From a bacterium (GTDB lineage Bacteria > JAJVIF01): 64,000 nt of DNA. Positions 4,570 through 48,089 of this stretch are shown here, in pieces (the first letter of the stretch is position 1; the number at the start of each line of letters is the position of its first letter). The DNA lies in assembly GCA_022072165.1 (NCBI GenBank), contig JAJVIF010000002.1, forward strand, positions 324,258-388,257, written 5' to 3'. Both the position numbers and the translations under genes were made by a program. The notes under the pieces are model-generated. The model saw only the letters and a list, made by a program, of their open reading frames with translations, was not told the origin of the DNA and made no database searches.

Positions 4570-5082
4570 ATGTCCACCACCATTTCCCAGACCAAGCAGG
4601 CCGACCAGACCAAGGGCAAGGTCATCATCGATGGCTCCATGTGGCGGCCCCTGAAGCAGATCCCCGATGAGCGCGGACGCCTCATGGAGATCATGCGTCG
4701 CGACTGGGAGGGCTTCTTCACGGAGTTCGGCCAGTGCTACCTGACCACAGGCTACCCCGGCGTGGTGAAAGCCTGGCACTACCACCGGCATCAGGATGAC
4801 CACTTCTGTGTGGTCCACGGCATGATGAAAGTGGTGCTCTATGACGACCGGGAAGGATCGCCCACCCGGGGCGTCATCAATGAGTGGATCATGGGTCCCC
4901 TGAATCCGGGGGTCCTCAAGATTCCCCGCCTCGTCTTCCACGGTTTCAAGACCGTCAGCGAGCACGAAGCCCTGCTGATCAACCTGCCGACCAACACCTA
5001 CAACTACGCTGACCCCGACGAGTACCGGACCCACCCCCACACCGGCGAAGTCCCCTACGACTGGTCGCGCAAAGACGGGTAA
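4570..5082 (+). CDS. RmlC-like cupin (dTDP-4-dehydrorhamnose 3,5-epimerase family)
   Basis: The 170-residue cupin resembles the RmlC family, which epimerises dTDP-4-keto-6-deoxyglucose for surface sugars. Family marks are the early DERG segment, the GVVKAW strand leading to the active-site His region, the GSPTRG turn, and the C-terminal pattern NYADPDEYR ending in PYDW. In true RmlC the His region is GLHYQ followed by GKLVR. Here it reads WHYHRHQDDHFCVVHG, so the catalytic Lys position is altered and the His-rich stretch could bind a metal. It may therefore be a related isomerase or a metal cupin. No other dTDP-rhamnose gene sits beside it, although a Wzz-like gene lies 2.2 kb downstream. Confidence 0.72.
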   Translation: MSTTISQTKQADQTKGKVIIDGSMWRPLKQIPDERGRLMEIMRRDWEGFFTEFGQCYLTTGYPGVVKAWHYHRHQDDHFCVVHGMMKVVLYDDREGSPTRGVINEWIMGPLNPGVLKIPRLVFHGFKTVSEHEALLINLPTNTYNYADPDEYRTHPHTGEVPYDWSRKDG

Positions 5083-5247
5083 CCCCGCTCCTGACGCTGA
5101 CGTTTCGCCCCCTGAAATGGCGGGGGGGCGTGGTATCCTCCGTGGCAGGCGTGCCGGACTCCCGCGTTTGCCGCAGGCTCCTGCCAGAGTCGCATGCGGG
5201 ATCACATACTGCCTGTCCATCAGTAGTGCAGGGAAGGACCACCACCG

Positions 5248-6195
5248 ATGAGTGACAACCGCTTCACCTGGGTGAACGGACGGATGATGCCCAAGGACCA
5301 GGCGGCGATCTCGCCGTTTGATCACGGTTTTCTTTATGGTGATGGCTGCTTCGAGGGGATCCGGATCTACAACCACCGGATTTTCAAATTCGACGAGCAC
5401 ATCGACCGGCTCTATGACTCCGCGAAGGTCATGCTCATCGACATTGACTCCCGCATTTCCCGGGCGGACCTCGAGACCGCGATTTTCGAAAGCATCCACG
5501 CGAATGAGATCTACGACCGGGGCTACATCCGCCTGGTCGCGACCCGCGGAGCGGGCGACCTCGGTATCAATCCCCGTAAATGCACCGAACCCCCGACCGT
5601 GGTGATCATCGTCGACACCCTGAGCATCTATCCCCAGGAAGACTACGACAAGGGGATTCGGGTCATCATCTGCTCGACCCGCAAACTGAGCCGCAATGGC
5701 TACAAGGCCCGGGTGAAGAGCCTCAACTACCTGAACAACATCTACGGCATCATCGAGGCAAACCGGGTCGGCGCCAAAGAAGGGATCATGCTCACCGACG
5801 AGGGCTATGTCGCCGAAGCCACGGTGGACAATGTCTTCATCCTTCGCAAAGGGGTGCTGAAGACCCCGCCCTGCGTGGTCGGTGCCCTCGATGGCATCAC
5901 CCGCCAGACTGTCATCGAACTGGCACGGCAGCACGGCGTGGATGTGCGCGAAGAAATGATGACGCCCTACGATCTTTACACCGCCGATGAGATGTTTCTC
6001 ACCGGCACCGGGGCCGAACTGATCCCGGTGACGATGGTCGACGATGTCACCATCGGTCACGGCCGTCCAGGAGCCAAAACCCAGGAAATCCTCGGCTGGT
6101 TCCGGGAATACGCCAACGCCAACGGTCGGGACATCCCCTCCAAAGAGGCGCTGCAGAACGGCACCATGATGTCCGCGACGGCGCAGCGGACGTAA
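5248..6195 (+). CDS. ilvE: Branched-chain amino acid aminotransferase (class IV, IlvE-like)
   Basis: This PLP enzyme transfers the amino group between glutamate and the keto acids of leucine, isoleucine and valine in the cytoplasm. The fold-type IV pattern is clear: FDHGFLYGDGCFEGIR near residues 24-39, the PLP lysine K157 in VKSLNYLNN, then EGIMLTDEGYVAEATVDNVF, and TGTGAELIPV near the C-terminus. The 315 residues are a little longer than the E. coli enzyme (309). ATG 5248 has AAGGA at 5234-5238. The gene stands alone, so a D-amino-acid aminotransferase or 4-amino-4-deoxychorismate lyase of the same fold is possible, but the sequence looks most like IlvE. Confidence 0.85.
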   Translation: MSDNRFTWVNGRMMPKDQAAISPFDHGFLYGDGCFEGIRIYNHRIFKFDEHIDRLYDSAKVMLIDIDSRISRADLETAIFESIHANEIYDRGYIRLVATRGAGDLGINPRKCTEPPTVVIIVDTLSIYPQEDYDKGIRVIICSTRKLSRNGYKARVKSLNYLNNIYGIIEANRVGAKEGIMLTDEGYVAEATVDNVFILRKGVLKTPPCVVGALDGITRQTVIELARQHGVDVREEMMTPYDLYTADEMFLTGTGAELIPVTMVDDVTIGHGRPGAKTQEILGWFREYANANGRDIPSKEALQNGTMMSATAQRT

Positions 6196-42167: not shown

Positions 42168-43130
42168 ATGCAGAGGGTGCAGCAACCGGACTACTACGCG
42201 CTCCTGGGAGTCGAACCGACGGCGTCCCCGGAAGAGCTCCGGGTGGCGCATAAGCGCGCCATGAAGGCAGTGCACCCAGACCTAAATCCTGAGGTGGATC
42301 CCACCGCCGCCGCGCAGGTGAATGCCGCCTTCGAGGTCCTGAGCGATCCGGCCAAACGACAGGCCTATGACGCCACCCGCCGGCCCCGTCGCCCTACTCT
42401 CTCGACCCGTCACGATCCGCAAGTCCGCGATGCGCGTCGCGAAGCCGAACAGGCGGCATCGAGTCGGGCCAGAGAAACCCGACGTCCAGCGCCGAGTGCA
42501 GCAGAACTCGCGGCGGCAGAGGCCAAGCGGGAAGCGCTGCGTCGGGATAAAGAAGCCGCACAGCAGCGACTGGCTGCCGACAAAGCGCGGCTGGCGGCCA
42601 CCGCCGCTGAACGCAATGCGAAACGTCGGGAACAACGAGAAAAGAAGGAGGTCGCGCAGGAGACTACGACGGCCCGCAAGGCGGCCATCGATGCCCGGAT
42701 GCGGCAGCCGACCCGTACACCAGCGCAGGCGCGACAGGAGTCAGACTGGCAGGCTTTCCGGGCAATGGCCTTGAAAACCCTGCGAAGTCCGGTCTTCCTG
42801 CAGGACTGCGGCGCCCCGTATCGCGAGGGACCAGGGCGCTGGGAAGCCCATCGCGATGGCATCTTCTGGATTCCGCAGCAGGGGCGTCCGGTGCTGCTGA
42901 AGAATCTCGACATCGATGCCACGCTGCAAAAGCTCTGGCAAACCGGGCGGGTCAGTCAGCAGGCGATGATCGAATCTTTTATGCGTCGTACGGATGATAT
43001 CACCGCCCGGCGCTCCGGCTGGTCGTTGTTTCGCCTGTTGCAGCAGGCTCCCTTTTTTGATGTTCGTCCTGACCCCTCATGGGCGTTGCTCTTCAATCGC
43101 CAGGTCTGGGAGACCGACAGCCTCAGATAG
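42168..43130 (+). CDS. DnaJ-domain protein
   Basis: The 320-residue protein has an N-terminal J domain: YYALLGVEPTASPEELRVAHKR, then the HPD tripeptide (AVHPDLNP) that stimulates Hsp70, and AFEVLSDPAKRQAYDA. No Gly/Phe or zinc-finger region follows. Instead there is a charged coiled coil (residues about 90-190, AAEAKREALRRDKEAA) and a C-terminal domain with FLQDCGAPYREG and LLKNLDIDATLQKLW. It is therefore a type III J protein whose tail probably recruits a specific client. ATG 42168 fits the promoter. The 3' end overlaps the convergent SDR gene by eight bases. Confidence 0.87.
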   Translation: MQRVQQPDYYALLGVEPTASPEELRVAHKRAMKAVHPDLNPEVDPTAAAQVNAAFEVLSDPAKRQAYDATRRPRRPTLSTRHDPQVRDARREAEQAASSRARETRRPAPSAAELAAAEAKREALRRDKEAAQQRLAADKARLAATAAERNAKRREQREKKEVAQETTTARKAAIDARMRQPTRTPAQARQESDWQAFRAMALKTLRSPVFLQDCGAPYREGPGRWEAHRDGIFWIPQQGRPVLLKNLDIDATLQKLWQTGRVSQQAMIESFMRRTDDITARRSGWSLFRLLQQAPFFDVRPDPSWALLFNRQVWETDSLR

Positions 43131-43860
43131 CCGCCGTGTTATCGAGGCCGCCGTTGCAGTCGATGACCGCCCCGGAGATGTACCCTGCCGCCGGGGAATG
43201 CAAAAAGCAGACGAGCTCCGCAAGGTCTGCCGGTTGCCCGACCCGTCGCAGGGGGACCTGCTGGGCAGCCCGCGCAAAGAAGGCCTCGCTGTACATCCCG
43301 TTGTGGATGATGCCGGGATTCACGAGATTGATCCGAATTCCGGCGGGGCCTTCGGCCTGGGCGATGGTGCGGGTCAGGACTACGAGTCCCGCTTTGGCCG
43401 CGTTGTAGCTTGCCCATCGTGGCGCTGCCGCAAGGTCCTGGATGCGGTTCTGCCCAATGAGCGTGATGACACCCCCGCCGGTGGCACGAAAGCGTGGCAT
43501 GAGGAGTTGCAGCAGTTGCCAGGGGCTCAGGAGATTGGTCTGCAGCAGCATCTGGTGCTGGGCGGGTGAGAGGGCATCCCAACTGCCGGTGAGAAAGGGT
43601 CCGACCGCGCACACCAGCCCCGACAGAGGGCCTTCGCTCCAGACCGCCGCCAGATGCTCGACCTCGCCGGGCCGCCGGAAGTCGCATGAGGTGCAGTCCA
43701 GGAGCGCATCCGCCCGGAGGGGCTCCAGGGTCGCATACGCCCGGTCCCGCGTGGCACCCGGACCGCGATCCTGCAGCCGGACCTGATAGCCCTGCTGTAC
43801 CAGCGCCACCGCGATTCCCAGGCCAATCCCGCCGGTCCCTCCCGCAATCGCGATCGCCAT
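43123..43860 (-). CDS. Short-chain dehydrogenase/reductase with altered catalytic Ser position
   Basis: The 245-residue Rossmann enzyme has GGTGGIGLGIAVAL (NAD(P) loop) and Y-N-A-A-K in WASYNAAKAG, the catalytic Tyr/Lys pair. The Pro-Gly region NLVNPGIIHNGMY and the C-terminal GYISGAVIDCNGG are also present. The usual catalytic Ser about 13 residues before Tyr is not visible: the segment reads ITLIGQNRIQDL. The enzyme may use another residue or bind rather than catalyse. AGGAG (seven bases before ATG 43860) supports the start. It follows the nucleotidyltransferase by 21 bases, the last gene of a minus-strand run. Confidence 0.85.
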   Translation of the reverse strand: MAIAIAGGTGGIGLGIAVALVQQGYQVRLQDRGPGATRDRAYATLEPLRADALLDCTSCDFRRPGEVEHLAAVWSEGPLSGLVCAVGPFLTGSWDALSPAQHQMLLQTNLLSPWQLLQLLMPRFRATGGGVITLIGQNRIQDLAAAPRWASYNAAKAGLVVLTRTIAQAEGPAGIRINLVNPGIIHNGMYSEAFFARAAQQVPLRRVGQPADLAELVCFLHSPAAGYISGAVIDCNGGLDNTAAI

Positions 43861-43881
43861 GACCAGTCTCCTGTCAGCGGA

Positions 43882-44868
43882 TCAGAGTGCGGCTGGGGGC
43901 CGGTAGTCCTCGAAGTAGAGGTCGTATTCCGGCGTAATCAGGTTGTTGCGGATGTGCGGCTGGGGCCGGACCCGGGAGTGACTGAAGATAACAGTGTCCT
44001 GAATCAGGGTGACCTCTTCGGGAATCGACACCTGCGCTCCAACAACCGCCCGGACCAGCTTGCAGCCCTCCGGGACGTCGGTGGAGGGATCGACCACGGC
44101 ATCAAGCCCCCGTCGCTCCAGCTCCCGGGCACTGATGCGGAGGAGATCCTCGGGGACCGTGACATTCATGTCGGCTTTAATCACATTTGCCGGATAGACC
44201 GCCGCGCCATCGTCGATGAAAATCTGGATCGCCTCGGTGAGTTCATACTCATCTCTGAGCGCGGTCCGGGGGGTTCGGCGGATGGCATCGAAAATCGTCA
44301 CATCGAACAGATAGATGCCGCAGCCCTTGAGGGGATTGTTGACGTAGCGGGGCTTTTCGATGACCCGGACGACCCGGCTGGAAGGGTCCAGGGAGCCATC
44401 AGGACGAGTCGCAAGTCGCACCGAGAAGTTCCGTCGGATGTTCTCCGGCGTGTCTTCCATGACGGCGAGAATCGCCCCGGCTTCGCGCTGGTGAAAGAGT
44501 TCCACCATCCGCTCCAGGCGGTCGGGGATGATGAAGATGTCGCCCAAAAACAGCAAAAACGGATGCGCGATGTGCTTTTCGAGTTTCCCGACGGCATGGG
44601 CGATGCCGAGCTGCGATTCCTGCTCCAGGTAATGCAGCGTCATGCCGAGGGATTCCCCATCGCCGAACCAGTCGCGCAGCCGCTCCTTCAGGTGCCCCAC
44701 CACGAGATACGCCTCGCGGATCCCCGCCTGGTGCATCAGTTCGAGCTGGTACTGAATGATCGGCTTGTTGCAAATGGGGAGGAGCGGCTTGGGCCACGAC
44801 TCGCTCAACGGGAGGATACGATCCCCCCGCCCTGCCGCCAGAATCGCGCCGACAATGGGCTGGGCCAT
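43882..44868 (-). CDS. NDP-sugar pyrophosphorylase (nucleotidyltransferase)
   Basis: The 328-residue enzyme couples a sugar phosphate to a nucleotide. The N-terminal signature is VGAILAAGRGDRI, then PKPLLPICNKPIIQYQL; QLGIAHAVG and FLGDIFI follow in the active site. A C-terminal left-handed helix region is seen in VRAVVGAQVSIPEEVTLIQDT. It could act with dTTP, UTP or CTP; the sequence does not decide. ATG 44868 lies seven bases after TATTAT (44881-44876), a leaderless arrangement and possibly an internal promoter of the cluster. The SDR and unknown Rossmann-like genes flank it. Confidence 0.87.
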   Translation of the reverse strand: MAQPIVGAILAAGRGDRILPLSESWPKPLLPICNKPIIQYQLELMHQAGIREAYLVVGHLKERLRDWFGDGESLGMTLHYLEQESQLGIAHAVGKLEKHIAHPFLLFLGDIFIIPDRLERMVELFHQREAGAILAVMEDTPENIRRNFSVRLATRPDGSLDPSSRVVRVIEKPRYVNNPLKGCGIYLFDVTIFDAIRRTPRTALRDEYELTEAIQIFIDDGAAVYPANVIKADMNVTVPEDLLRISARELERRGLDAVVDPSTDVPEGCKLVRAVVGAQVSIPEEVTLIQDTVIFSHSRVRPQPHIRNNLITPEYDLYFEDYRPPAAL

Positions 44869-44891
44869 GGGACTGATAATAGCAATGCGCC

Positions 44892-45866
44892 TTATGCGCC
44901 GTGCGCCGGGAGCTCCGCCTCGAAGCGTGCCCGGGCATCCAGCCAGACCGGGTTCGTCGTCTCGCTGATAAGTCCGCCCTGCCCATCCGCCCAGCCAAGG
45001 ACTTCCCCGGGGTCATCCAGCCGGTCCACCACCAGTGCTCCGGCAGGACCGAGCAGGCCTCCAGCGACCAGCGTGATTCCCGCCGCCGAGCGGGTGCCGG
45101 CGTGACGAGTCAGCAAGGTGCGGTACTGGCGTCCCTGGGTGATGGCCGCTGCCAGTGCGCCCCGCATATCAGGCCGCCAGACTGGCCAGCCCTGCTCCCG
45201 GGCGTACTCGAGAGCAGCGGTCGTGAAAGTCCCGATGCCTCCATCGATGCAGAGCGGCTGCACACCATCTGCTGCAATCGCTTCCAGTGCCGGGGCATCC
45301 ATGACCGGCGTGTGAAAGCTGGTTCCGATCAGTGTTAGCTGGCCCGGTTCGGCACCAAGGATGGCGAGGCTCCGGACCACATCAAAGCCAAACGACAGGC
45401 CGCGCTGTGCCACCGCATCGGTGAGGGGGCTGGCTCCGACGAGAAGGAGTTCTTCGGCGGGCGAGGGTCGTCGGTGATGCAGCACCAGCGCCAGGACCGC
45501 GTCGGCCCAGATGGCCAGATCGCTGTAGCAGCCGACGTCGGGATGGTCTGCCAGCAGGTCGCGGTACTGCTGCGACGCGGGTCCTTTGCTGCTGCTATCG
45601 AGCCAGACATCCAGTTCATAGGCCGGAGCGAGCGCCATGGCGGCTGCCGCTTCATCCGGCGTGGCAACTTCCAGATTCCCGATAAGGAGCGAGCCTGACC
45701 GGGTCGCGGCATGCCAGCGACTGCGGGGTGTCGGCCAGACACTCTGCGCCAGGGTCAGGACTGGTGTCAGCCCCCGGGCGGTCGCACCGACTGCCAGACG
45801 GCGCAGTGATTCCTCGTGTGTTTCGGTCGATGTCATGGGTGTGGGTCGGAGGGTCGTGCTGGTCAT
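44892..45866 (-). CDS. Rossmann-like protein of unknown function in the aldolase/nucleotidyltransferase cluster
   Basis: I do not recognise this protein of about 324 residues. The middle holds EELLLVGASPLTDAVAQRGL, resembling a nucleotide-binding loop, then FDVVRSLAILG and LTLIGTSFHTPVMDAPALEAIA, so a Rossmann-type domain is likely. Earlier segments include YELDVWLDSSSKGPASQQY and CYSDLAIWADAVLAL. A DGGIGTFTTAALEYA loop lies near the C-terminus. The N-terminus is uncertain: in-frame ATGs lie at 45890, 45866 and 45836. It is 74 bases after the aldolase and 23 bases before the nucleotidyltransferase, suggesting cotranscription and a step in the same sugar pathway. Confidence 0.68.
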   Translation of the reverse strand: MTSTTLRPTPMTSTETHEESLRRLAVGATARGLTPVLTLAQSVWPTPRSRWHAATRSGSLLIGNLEVATPDEAAAAMALAPAYELDVWLDSSSKGPASQQYRDLLADHPDVGCYSDLAIWADAVLALVLHHRRPSPAEELLLVGASPLTDAVAQRGLSFGFDVVRSLAILGAEPGQLTLIGTSFHTPVMDAPALEAIAADGVQPLCIDGGIGTFTTAALEYAREQGWPVWRPDMRGALAAAITQGRQYRTLLTRHAGTRSAAGITLVAGGLLGPAGALVVDRLDDPGEVLGWADGQGGLISETTNPVWLDARARFEAELPAHGA

Positions 45867-45940
45867 CGTAGGCCTGTTCGTAGACTCCAACCTGATGGGA
45901 GTATGCCGGTCGGTTTGACCGGCGACAACTGGCGACTGGA

Positions 45941-47026
45941 TCAGAGCGGGATGCGGGCCGGGTACTCACCCGCTGAGGCCGCTTCCCGAACCAGGGAGGC
46001 GGCGAGGCGGCGCATCAGCTCCGGGGTCGGATGTTCGGGGTCCACCGCCCCGACCGCCAGGACCAGTTGTCGGGCATCGAGATCGTACTCCCGGGCGATG
46101 GCGGTGGCTTGTGCCAGGTACGACGAGTGGAAGCGGGCGGCACCCAGGGTGAGGTCCAGCGGCTCGATGCCCCCGCGATGTTCAAGATAAGGACGAATGG
46201 CCCGATGTCCCAGGTCCTGGATACGGATGGGATCGATTCCGGTCTGATACCCCGCCCGCTCGAGGACCAGGACCAGCGACTCCGTGATGGCATTGCCCGC
46301 CGAGCGTCCGAGGCCGTTCAGCGTGCTGTCGACCCAGACCGCCCCGGCATCCAGGGCAGCAAGGGCGTTGGCGTTGGCGAGTCCGAGATTGTTGTGACCG
46401 TGAAAGCCCAACACCATCGCTGGCTCGGCCTGCAGGGCGGCATCAACATACCGCGCGACTTCCGCGGGGAGCATCCCACCGGCGGAGTCAACAACCGACA
46501 CCACCTGCGCCCCCATCTGCCAGCACTGGCGGGCGAAGTCGGCGAATTGCGCAGGGGTGACGGCGTAGCTTTTCATCAGATTCGCACAGGGCACGACACC
46601 CGCGTCGATAGCCTGCCGGATAAAGGGCTCCATCTGGTGGCATTCGGTGACGTTGGTACCGATGCGGACAAAATCGAGTCCGGCGCTGATAGCGGCCGCC
46701 AGTTCCTCATGGACGCCGATGCCAGGGATGAAGAAGACACCCCACCTGGCGGAGGTCAGGACCGCATCGACCGCCTCGCAGTACTCCTGATCGGTCGCCG
46801 CCGACTGGCCATGCCCCCGGGTGCTGGCCCCCAGTCCCAGGCCGTGGCCAATCTCGATCCAGCGGACTCCTGCCTGTTCCAGGCCCTGCGCCAGCGCCGC
46901 GGCCTCGGCAGCGGTAAAGGCGTAGTCGATAGCGTAGGAACCATCGCGCAGGGTGCATTCCAGGAGTTCCGCCGCCCGGAGTCCGGGGGCCGCAGTCGCC
47001 GGCAATGGGGAAAATGCCAGGGCCAT
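45941..47026 (-). CDS. DmpG/HMGL-like aldolase (4-hydroxy-2-oxovalerate aldolase type)
   Basis: The 361-residue enzyme has the HMGL-like TIM barrel: LLECTLRDGSYAIDYAF with the catalytic Arg-Asp, then IEIGHGLGLG. The metal-binding pair H-x-H is in GFHGHNNLGLANANAL, followed by VDSTLNGLGRSAGNA. This matches DmpG/MhpE-type aldolases that split or form 4-hydroxy-2-oxo acids. No acetaldehyde dehydrogenase partner is encoded, so a catabolic role is unlikely and a sugar- or surface-related use is inferred from the neighbours. ATG 47026 lies nine bases after GATAAT (47041-47036). The longer form from TTG 47050 is less likely. Confidence 0.85.
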   Translation of the reverse strand: MALAFSPLPATAAPGLRAAELLECTLRDGSYAIDYAFTAAEAAALAQGLEQAGVRWIEIGHGLGLGASTRGHGQSAATDQEYCEAVDAVLTSARWGVFFIPGIGVHEELAAAISAGLDFVRIGTNVTECHQMEPFIRQAIDAGVVPCANLMKSYAVTPAQFADFARQCWQMGAQVVSVVDSAGGMLPAEVARYVDAALQAEPAMVLGFHGHNNLGLANANALAALDAGAVWVDSTLNGLGRSAGNAITESLVLVLERAGYQTGIDPIRIQDLGHRAIRPYLEHRGGIEPLDLTLGAARFHSSYLAQATAIAREYDLDARQLVLAVGAVDPEHPTPELMRRLAASLVREAASAGEYPARIPL

Positions 47027-47072
47027 GTCCGACGGATTATCGGCTGGCAACGCCAGCGCTTAAAGCGGCAGT

Positions 47073-48089
47073 TCAGGCAGTGACGAGCTGTCCGCAGGCG
47101 GCCCCAACATCCTGGCCCCGGGACCATCGGACAAACGCCGGGATGTGGGCTCGCTGGAGGGCGTCCTGAAAGAGGGCGATGACCTCCCGCTCCGGACGAC
47201 TGTAGGTGGCGTGCGCTGTGGTGTTGTAGGGAATCAGATTGACCTTCACCCGACAGCCGCCAAAGACCCGGACCAGTTCCCGAACATCTTCCGGGCGGTC
47301 ATTGATCTCGGCCATGAGGGGATACTCCAGCGTCACCCGCCCCCCCCATTTGGGATCGATCTGCCGGATGGTCTGCGCGATCCGGGCGACCGGGTACTTG
47401 CGATTTATCGGCATCAGCACACTGCGGGTCTCATCAAAGGGACTGACCAGGCTGATGGCGAGATTCACCTGCGGAAAGTCGTGATGGAACTCCAACAGCT
47501 CATCCATGAGTCCGGCAGTCGACAAGGTGACGCGGGTCAGGGAGAAGCCATAGCCCGCCAGATCACCGAGGGCATGCAGTAAGTGGTCCAGGTGCGGGCG
47601 ATTGTGCAGCGGCTCCCCCATCCCCATCAGCACCAGATTATCCGGACGTCGCTCGAAGCGTCGATCCAGCAACAACACCTGTTCCAGATACTCGCCGGGA
47701 GTCAGCTGACGGACCAGTCCCATGGTCCCGGTCGCGCAGAAGGTGCATCCCAGCGCACAGCCGACCTGTGATGAGAGACAGAGCGTGAGCCTCGACTCGG
47801 TCGGCATCCAGACAGTTTCGATCCGCGCGCCATCCCGTAAGCGCCACACCACTTTGCGGGAGCCATCGGCGGATTCAAGGATCGCTTCCGCTTCCAGCAT
47901 CGTGGGGACAACAGCAGCCGCAAGGGCAGCCCGCAAAGCCACCGGGAGATTGGTCATCTTCGCGGGATCGCTTTCCCGCTGCTTGAAGAGCCACGACTGC
48001 ACCTGCTGCAGCCGAAATGAGGGCTCCCCCACCGCGGCGATGAGGGCCGCCAGTTCCGGCGATGAGTAATCGTAGAGGGACCGTTCCAC
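47073..48089 (-). CDS. rlmN: 23S rRNA (adenine-C2)-methyltransferase RlmN
   Basis: This 338-residue radical-SAM enzyme methylates A2503 of 23S rRNA and A37 of some tRNAs. The iron-sulfur cysteines are C111, C115 and C118 (GCALGCTFCATG), followed by LTPGEYLEQV and NLVLMGMGEPLHN. The methyl-carrying cysteine C332 is in AACGQL at the C-terminus. Length is slightly shorter than E. coli RlmN (384). GTG 48089 lies seven bases after TAGACT (48102-48097), which overlaps the moeA stop codon, so it may be transcribed both with moeA and alone. Confidence 0.95.
   Translation of the reverse strand: MERSLYDYSSPELAALIAAVGEPSFRLQQVQSWLFKQRESDPAKMTNLPVALRAALAAAVVPTMLEAEAILESADGSRKVVWRLRDGARIETVWMPTESRLTLCLSSQVGCALGCTFCATGTMGLVRQLTPGEYLEQVLLLDRRFERRPDNLVLMGMGEPLHNRPHLDHLLHALGDLAGYGFSLTRVTLSTAGLMDELLEFHHDFPQVNLAISLVSPFDETRSVLMPINRKYPVARIAQTIRQIDPKWGGRVTLEYPLMAEINDRPEDVRELVRVFGGCRVKVNLIPYNTTAHATYSRPEREVIALFQDALQRAHIPAFVRWSRGQDVGAACGQLVTA

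Follow-up and report, generated by a model that had tools for sequence, protein, structure and literature searches.

What do an aldolase, a protein of no named family, a sugar nucleotidyltransferase and a short-chain dehydrogenase/reductase (SDR) do side by side in a bacterial genome? The question is raised by four genes in a stretch of 64,000 nucleotides (the window; about 63% GC) from the assembly GCA_022072165.1 (G000; 3.26 Mb in four contigs), where it occupies positions 324258-388257 of contig JAJVIF010000002.1 (C2). An earlier note, made from the letters alone, had described four tightly spaced minus-strand genes that might form an undescribed pathway, with an aldol reaction feeding nucleotide activation of a branched or higher-carbon sugar. 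The four open reading frames are indeed there, in an operon-like arrangement with gaps of 50, 23 and 21 bp (Table 1). Our best reading, however, is that only two of them, the aldolase (45941) and the unplaced protein (44892), belong together, as the halves of one bifunctional protein that represents a widespread, unnamed two-part enzyme.

The pairing of these two genes recurs well outside the window. Searches of 40 and then 385 genomes confined relatives of 44892 to the window's own class, which we compared through the window genome and three others (G001, G002 and G003); relatives were present in G001 and G003, and G002 gave no match to the family. In G001 the order is a DegT aminotransferase gene, the aldolase, the 44892 relative and a PseG-like gene. 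When the alignment of the aldolase pair was run against about 85,000 species genomes, 31 loci emerged, and at L006, L007, L010, L011, L012, L018, L019 and L021 (in that order TA06, a Methanosarcinales archaeon, Pyrinomonadaceae, Uhrbacteria, Cloacimonadota, two Hydrogenedentota and Omnitrophota) the aldolase and a 44892 domain at its C terminus form a single protein of 680-724 amino acids; the protein at L009 (WOR-1) is interrupted by the contig end. Searches phylum by phylum added eight further Hydrogenedentota members, all fused, and three stand-alone relatives in Omnitrophota. The family is thus present in 23 genomes, in 20 of which the aldolase is fused or adjacent and in 17 of which it is fused, in bacteria and in one archaeon. 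Because the two halves are fused in 17 genomes, their pairing is far beyond chance. The earlier note had proposed conserved co-occurrence of all four families as a check; it holds for these two and fails for the nucleotidyltransferase and the SDR.

The distribution of the 44892 family is patchy (one genome in 147, 246 and 199, respectively, in three phyla, and 10 of 68 in Hydrogenedentota), which suggests horizontal spread. In a tree of the aldolases the paired members cluster and separate-gene forms arise at least twice; the deep forks, where long branches meet, are unresolved. A phage or plasmid origin was considered and rejected: tblastn with a G001 relative found no match among plasmids and phages, and viral contigs scanned with the window protein, and with a profile of two sequences, gave none either. 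We also note that the three stand-alone Omnitrophota relatives (L086, L087 and L088) are divergent, that each is preceded by a 790-amino-acid protein resembling an NAD/FAD oxidoreductase in place of the aldolase, and that a NeuB-like gene is adjacent in two of them (L087 and L088). At L017, in a genome labelled Bifidobacterium breve that is probably misbinned, the aldolase carries a C-terminal extension that resembles the N-terminal half of the 44892 family alone, without the Rossmann part.

The aldolase had been called DmpG-like, a description that stands for the family at large and not for the active site. Pfam and NCBIfam place the protein among HMGL-like/DmpG-like enzymes, and it reaches 284.4 bits against NF006049 (cut-off 229); against TIGR03217, the equivalog model for 4-hydroxy-2-oxovalerate aldolase, it reaches 260.5 bits, short of the cut-off of 286. 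We compared its residues with PDB 1nvm and 33 subfamily sequences, two divergent members (L029 and L030) being left out of all residue counts. The aldolase fold is common to DmpG and the window protein, as are Arg17 and the metal ligands Asp18, His200 and His202 (R35, D36, H217 and H219 in the window), which every readable member of the subfamily (28-31 sequences) retains. By contrast, His21, the catalytic base of DmpG, is tyrosine in 28 of 28 members (Y39 in the window) and Tyr291 is histidine in all 33 (H308), so that the two residues are swapped, and lysine replaces Met142 (K160), phenylalanine Leu88 (F106) and isoleucine Leu90 (I108), each in 31 of 31. Both L029 and L030 have the tyrosine at position 21; L029 differs from the subfamily at positions 142 and 291. 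Judged by these residues, the window protein is a predicted class II enzyme of the pyruvate-aldolase type that falls in a distinct 'RDGSYAID' subfamily and is not DmpG. The subfamily is also an annotation trap, in that it scores as 4-hydroxy-2-oxovalerate aldolase yet lacks the key histidine and tyrosine of that enzyme. Residues Leu87, Leu89 and Tyr290 of BphI, equivalent to DmpG Leu88, Leu90 and Tyr291, govern aldehyde size and C4 stereochemistry, and the double exchange L87W/Y290F reverses that stereochemistry (PMC3962088); the RDGSYAID subfamily may possibly have a C4 stereochemistry opposite to that of DmpG.

The partner protein resembles a dehydrogenase. For the window's own 44892 sequence, in which homology starts close to an internal ATG (45836), neither Pfam nor NCBIfam has a matching model, and the PDB holds no significant sequence match. 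The earlier guess of a Rossmann protein nevertheless proved right at the level of the predicted fold: the structure prediction that the note had suggested, made by AlphaFold2 with 22 relatives, gave a two-domain NAD(P)-dehydrogenase fold (predicted local distance difference test, pLDDT, 90.7; predicted template-modelling score, pTM, 0.84). Foldseek ranks dipicolinate synthase A first for this model (E 8e-5), and VIA-align, run on the Foldseek top 1000, aligns it with glutamate dehydrogenases (Z 14.0, 221 residues aligned, root-mean-square deviation 4.2 Å) and also places it with malic enzymes, methylene-tetrahydromethanopterin dehydrogenase and, for the Rossmann part, dipicolinate synthase A. 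Sequence evidence agrees independently with this fold: dipicolinate synthase A is the best PDB match of the family profile (E 1.2e-7), single members match Shikimate_DH, F420_oxidored, THF_DHG_CYH_C, AlaDh_PNT_C and 2-Hacid_dh_C, and the weak profile matches in Omnitrophota are reading frames that to the eye look like FolD, glutamyl-tRNA reductase and D-2-hydroxyacid dehydrogenases. The resemblance to dipicolinate synthase subunit A (PDB 2rir, 3d4o), an enzyme that likewise follows a pyruvate aldolase (DapA) in its pathway, amounts to about 16% identity and is confined to the NAD(P)-binding half. With glutamate dehydrogenase, malic enzyme and FolD the model shares the two-domain architecture over residues 1-243, a likeness of fold with Z values of 14 and lower at about 10% identity, and differs in an extra C-terminal beta segment (VAGG...ADG.GG). 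On the strength of the model and of the relatives' Pfam and NCBIfam matches, 44892 is a new family of predicted two-domain, NAD(P)-dehydrogenase-like proteins with a Rossmann domain. A model of the aldolase-44892 fusion has a pTM of 0.46, too low to judge domain arrangement or channelling, and its Foldseek matches confirm the aldolase half alone.

DmpG and DmpF and their orthologues (AmnG-AmnH; PDB 1nvm, 4jn6, 4lrs, 8ih7) likewise combine a class II pyruvate aldolase with an NAD-dependent dehydrogenase. As the earlier note had observed, no acetaldehyde dehydrogenase adjoins the aldolase at this locus, where the neighbouring 44892 belongs to a different family. We rejected the idea that 44892 is itself such a dehydrogenase (DmpF), to which it has no sequence match and whose catalytic cysteine is not conserved in it: no cysteine column is conserved among the 23 sequences of the family (the best is cysteine in 11 of 23 and leucine in the window), and DmpF-type thioester chemistry is therefore unlikely. 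The two systems also differ in that covalent fusion is usual for the 44892 pair and its context is one of glycan genes rather than aromatic degradation. Should our reading be correct, the pair would be a second, independently built aldolase-dehydrogenase partnership. It is unlikely, we think, that 44892 is instead a Rossmann partner without catalysis of its own, dead or structural, whose only part would be to shape or regulate the aldolase. The degenerate glycine motif of the window protein, its lack of a Pfam match and the apparent retention of the N-terminal part alone at L017 could be cited for this; against it, the polar residues D98, Y122, D216, R239, D241 and D289 of the dehydrogenase half are invariant or nearly so in up to 23 sequences, and models of NAD(P)-binding families match other members.

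What the enzyme might make is suggested by its neighbours, which we counted with local phmmer seeds within 10 kb, several of the contigs being short. The relatives are situated in clusters for nonulosonates or for other surface glycans. Around the pair lie genes for an ATP-grasp protein whose C-terminal domain is of the L-amino-acid-ligase kind, aminotransferases dependent on pyridoxal phosphate (class I or DegT), a methyltransferase of class I, proteins of the Amidohydro_2 or a deacetylase-like kind, NeuB and PseG, and some genomes cluster the aldolase with NeuB, ATP-grasp and PseG-type genes. An ATP-grasp or AMP-forming ligase is found near 23 of the 31 aldolase-subfamily loci and NeuB near 14. 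The members that have the aldolase only are of two kinds, one with the ATP-grasp set and the other with an AMP-ligase set, which adds an AAC(3)-like acyltransferase and cyclase-like and VOC-like genes to NeuB and PseG. At L016, L020, L024, L028 and L031 the cyclase of the latter set is kynurenine-formamidase-like, a CMP-sugar synthetase is present and sometimes a small protein resembling acyl carrier protein; this set resembles a second acyl-group module.

We tentatively favour, at somewhat less than even odds, a two-part aldolase-dehydrogenase whose product is a 2-oxo or hydroxy acid that becomes amide-linked to a nonulosonate-type sugar. The aldolase half would use a metal-dependent aldol reaction to add pyruvate, or a closely related compound, to an aldehyde, giving a 4-hydroxy-2-oxo acid, and the 44892 half would carry out an NAD(P)-dependent reduction, oxidation or reductive amination of that acid or of an aldehyde passed between the halves. 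The ATP-grasp ligase, or the AMP-forming ligase in the aldolase-only lineages, would activate the resulting acid, which would then form an amide with an amino group on a sugar of the nonulosonic-acid type whose backbone NeuB-type enzymes supply, and the decorated sugar would end on flagellin or another surface glycan. The direction of the reaction, the substrates, the product and the N-acyl destination are all points that we infer. More tentative still is the wider proposal of an undescribed class of bifunctional enzymes, in which a re-wired class II pyruvate aldolase (His21 and Tyr291 exchanged, C4 stereochemistry possibly opposite) is covalently joined to a new dehydrogenase family and makes hydroxy or amino acids that would serve nonulosonate-type glycans as N-acyl groups, in several bacterial phyla and an archaeon. 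Our searches of the literature turned up no relevant account of a DmpG-like aldolase in a nonulosonate cluster. Many bacterial acyl groups on sialic-acid-like surface sugars are of unknown origin, and the aldolase-44892 combination offers a concrete enzyme pair that can be identified by the signature RDGSYAID ... MKSY ... FHSS and whose chemistry can be tested; if the proposal is true, it would be of use in glycan annotation and in biocatalysis with pyruvate aldolases.

Alternatively, the aldolase could build the sugar backbone itself, joining pyruvate to a sugar aldehyde to give a higher-carbon ulosonic acid in the manner of NanA, with 44892 reducing or oxidising the product. Membership of a pyruvate-aldolase family, the proximity of many relatives to PseG-like and NeuB genes and a pocket that differs from that of DmpG, and so may fit a larger aldehyde, are all compatible with such a role, which we nonetheless regard as improbable: NeuB-type synthases, which already perform this step, occur in the window genome and in many of these clusters, and within reach of several clusters there are no genes for sugar precursors. 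We prefer the acyl-group role because the acid-activating enzyme is the more constant neighbour and NeuB makes the backbone. A catabolic module on the pattern of DmpG/DmpF, cleaving a 4-hydroxy-2-oxo acid and channelling the aldehyde to a non-acylating dehydrogenase, is quite unlikely; homology to the channelling complex and the RraA-like and Amidohydro_2 genes at L006, of kinds known in protocatechuate/gallate meta-cleavage, would fit it, whereas no ring-cleavage genes were recognised by eye near any relative, the catalytic residues are changed and the glycan context recurs. L006 carries a compact set of five genes, for an ATP-grasp protein, an aspartate-aminotransferase-like protein, an RraA/LigK-like aldolase, an Amidohydro_2 protein and the fusion, and its short contig shows no sugar genes.

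Returning to the acyl-group reading, we find its parts in the window's genome, scattered. On contig C1 an ATP-grasp relative (822127-823299; E 3e-98) directly adjoins a PseG-like gene, an adjacency also seen in L007, L009 and L011, and a flagellar glycosylation locus (L039) has in a row a PseB-like dehydratase, NeuB (282 bits with the NeuB model, short of its equivalog cut-off), an SpsF-like cytidylyltransferase (by eye) and PseD/Maf-like, FliS-like and FliD-like genes. NeuB, ATP-grasp ligase and PseG-type genes are thus all present in G000. A tested precedent for the overall logic, likened by gene kind and not for these enzymes, is sfmABCDE of Shewanella, which encodes NeuB, a thiamine-pyrophosphate (TPP) enzyme that forms C-C bonds, an SDR, a methyltransferase and an ATP-grasp protein; the flagellin there carries a nonulosonate with an extra moiety of 236-264 Da (PMC3765264).

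Several observations weigh against the acyl-group reading. By its own sequence the window's 44892 matches no Rossmann model. Several pair loci, in Hydrogenedentota and partly on short contigs, have no NeuB in reach, and RraA-like and Amidohydro_2 neighbours would also fit catabolism. In G000 the acid ligase, PseG and NeuB are on C1 and the aldolase is on C2, linked by homology only. Finally, the C-C-bond enzyme of sfmABCDE is an unrelated, IlvB-like TPP enzyme, and that system has no aldolase-dehydrogenase fusion.

Table 1. Positions of the genes and loci discussed (window numbering unless a contig or locus is given)
Feature	Position	Strand	Details
Aldolase	45941-47050	minus	369 aa from TTG; alternative ATG start 47026, the end given in the earlier note
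Unknown protein 44892	44892-45890	minus	332 aa from TTG; probable start is internal ATG 45836
Sugar-1-phosphate nucleotidyltransferase	43882-44868	minus	328 aa; PF00483 98 bits
SDR, FabG-like	43123-43860	minus	245 aa; PF13561 119 bits
RlmN-like gene	47073-48089		upstream of the four genes
PseG-like, ATP-grasp ligase, glycosyltransferase-like, Wzz-like	G000 C1:813000-832500 (L104:8078-13349)		
Flagellar glycosylation locus L039	G000 C1:1521500-1541400		
Five-gene set with fusion	L006:2-6448		TA06
Aldolase with C-terminal extension	L017:9989-11632		
Aldolase fusion near RlmN-like gene	L085:782-6014		
Stand-alone 44892 relative	L086:8401-9453		Omnitrophota
Stand-alone 44892 relative	L087 near 4616-5659		Omnitrophota; NeuB-like gene adjacent
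Stand-alone 44892 relative	L088:386-1498		Omnitrophota; NeuB-like gene adjacent

The remaining two genes are probably co-transcribed with the aldolase/44892 pair in the window. The nucleotidyltransferase scores 160 bits against TIGR03992, below its cut-off of 292, and its best matches, 53-57% identical, lie in G001, G002 and G003, away from any aldolase; in G001 and G003 it is on another contig than the aldolase/44892 pair, and it is present in G002 despite the lack of a 44892-family match there. Among these other genomes of the class an SDR stands beside it in G002 only, at 32% identity. Of the 31 aldolase-subfamily loci, three have nucleotidyltransferase matches nearby and four have SDR matches, the window included. 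Four-gene co-conservation is accordingly rejected: the four genes form two modules that are merely neighbours in the window. The nucleotidyltransferase could serve general sugar activation and the SDR could reduce the product, but the conserved module includes neither. A single pathway of all four genes, in which the aldol reaction would supply a branched or higher-carbon sugar for activation as an NDP-sugar, is very unlikely, for all the tight spacing and the plausibility of both proteins as sugar enzymes, and the neighbours of the relatives suggest carboxylic-acid activation and NeuB-type backbone synthesis instead. Of the undescribed pathway in the earlier note, a glycan context elsewhere that matches no described pathway survives, and the four-gene pathway does not.

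The four genes are flanked upstream, past a short gap, by the RlmN-like gene and downstream by a convergent DnaJ-like gene, neither of which, read by eye, is a glycan gene. At L085 an RlmN-like gene also lies near an aldolase fusion, a layout that resembles that of the window and is probably a coincidence.

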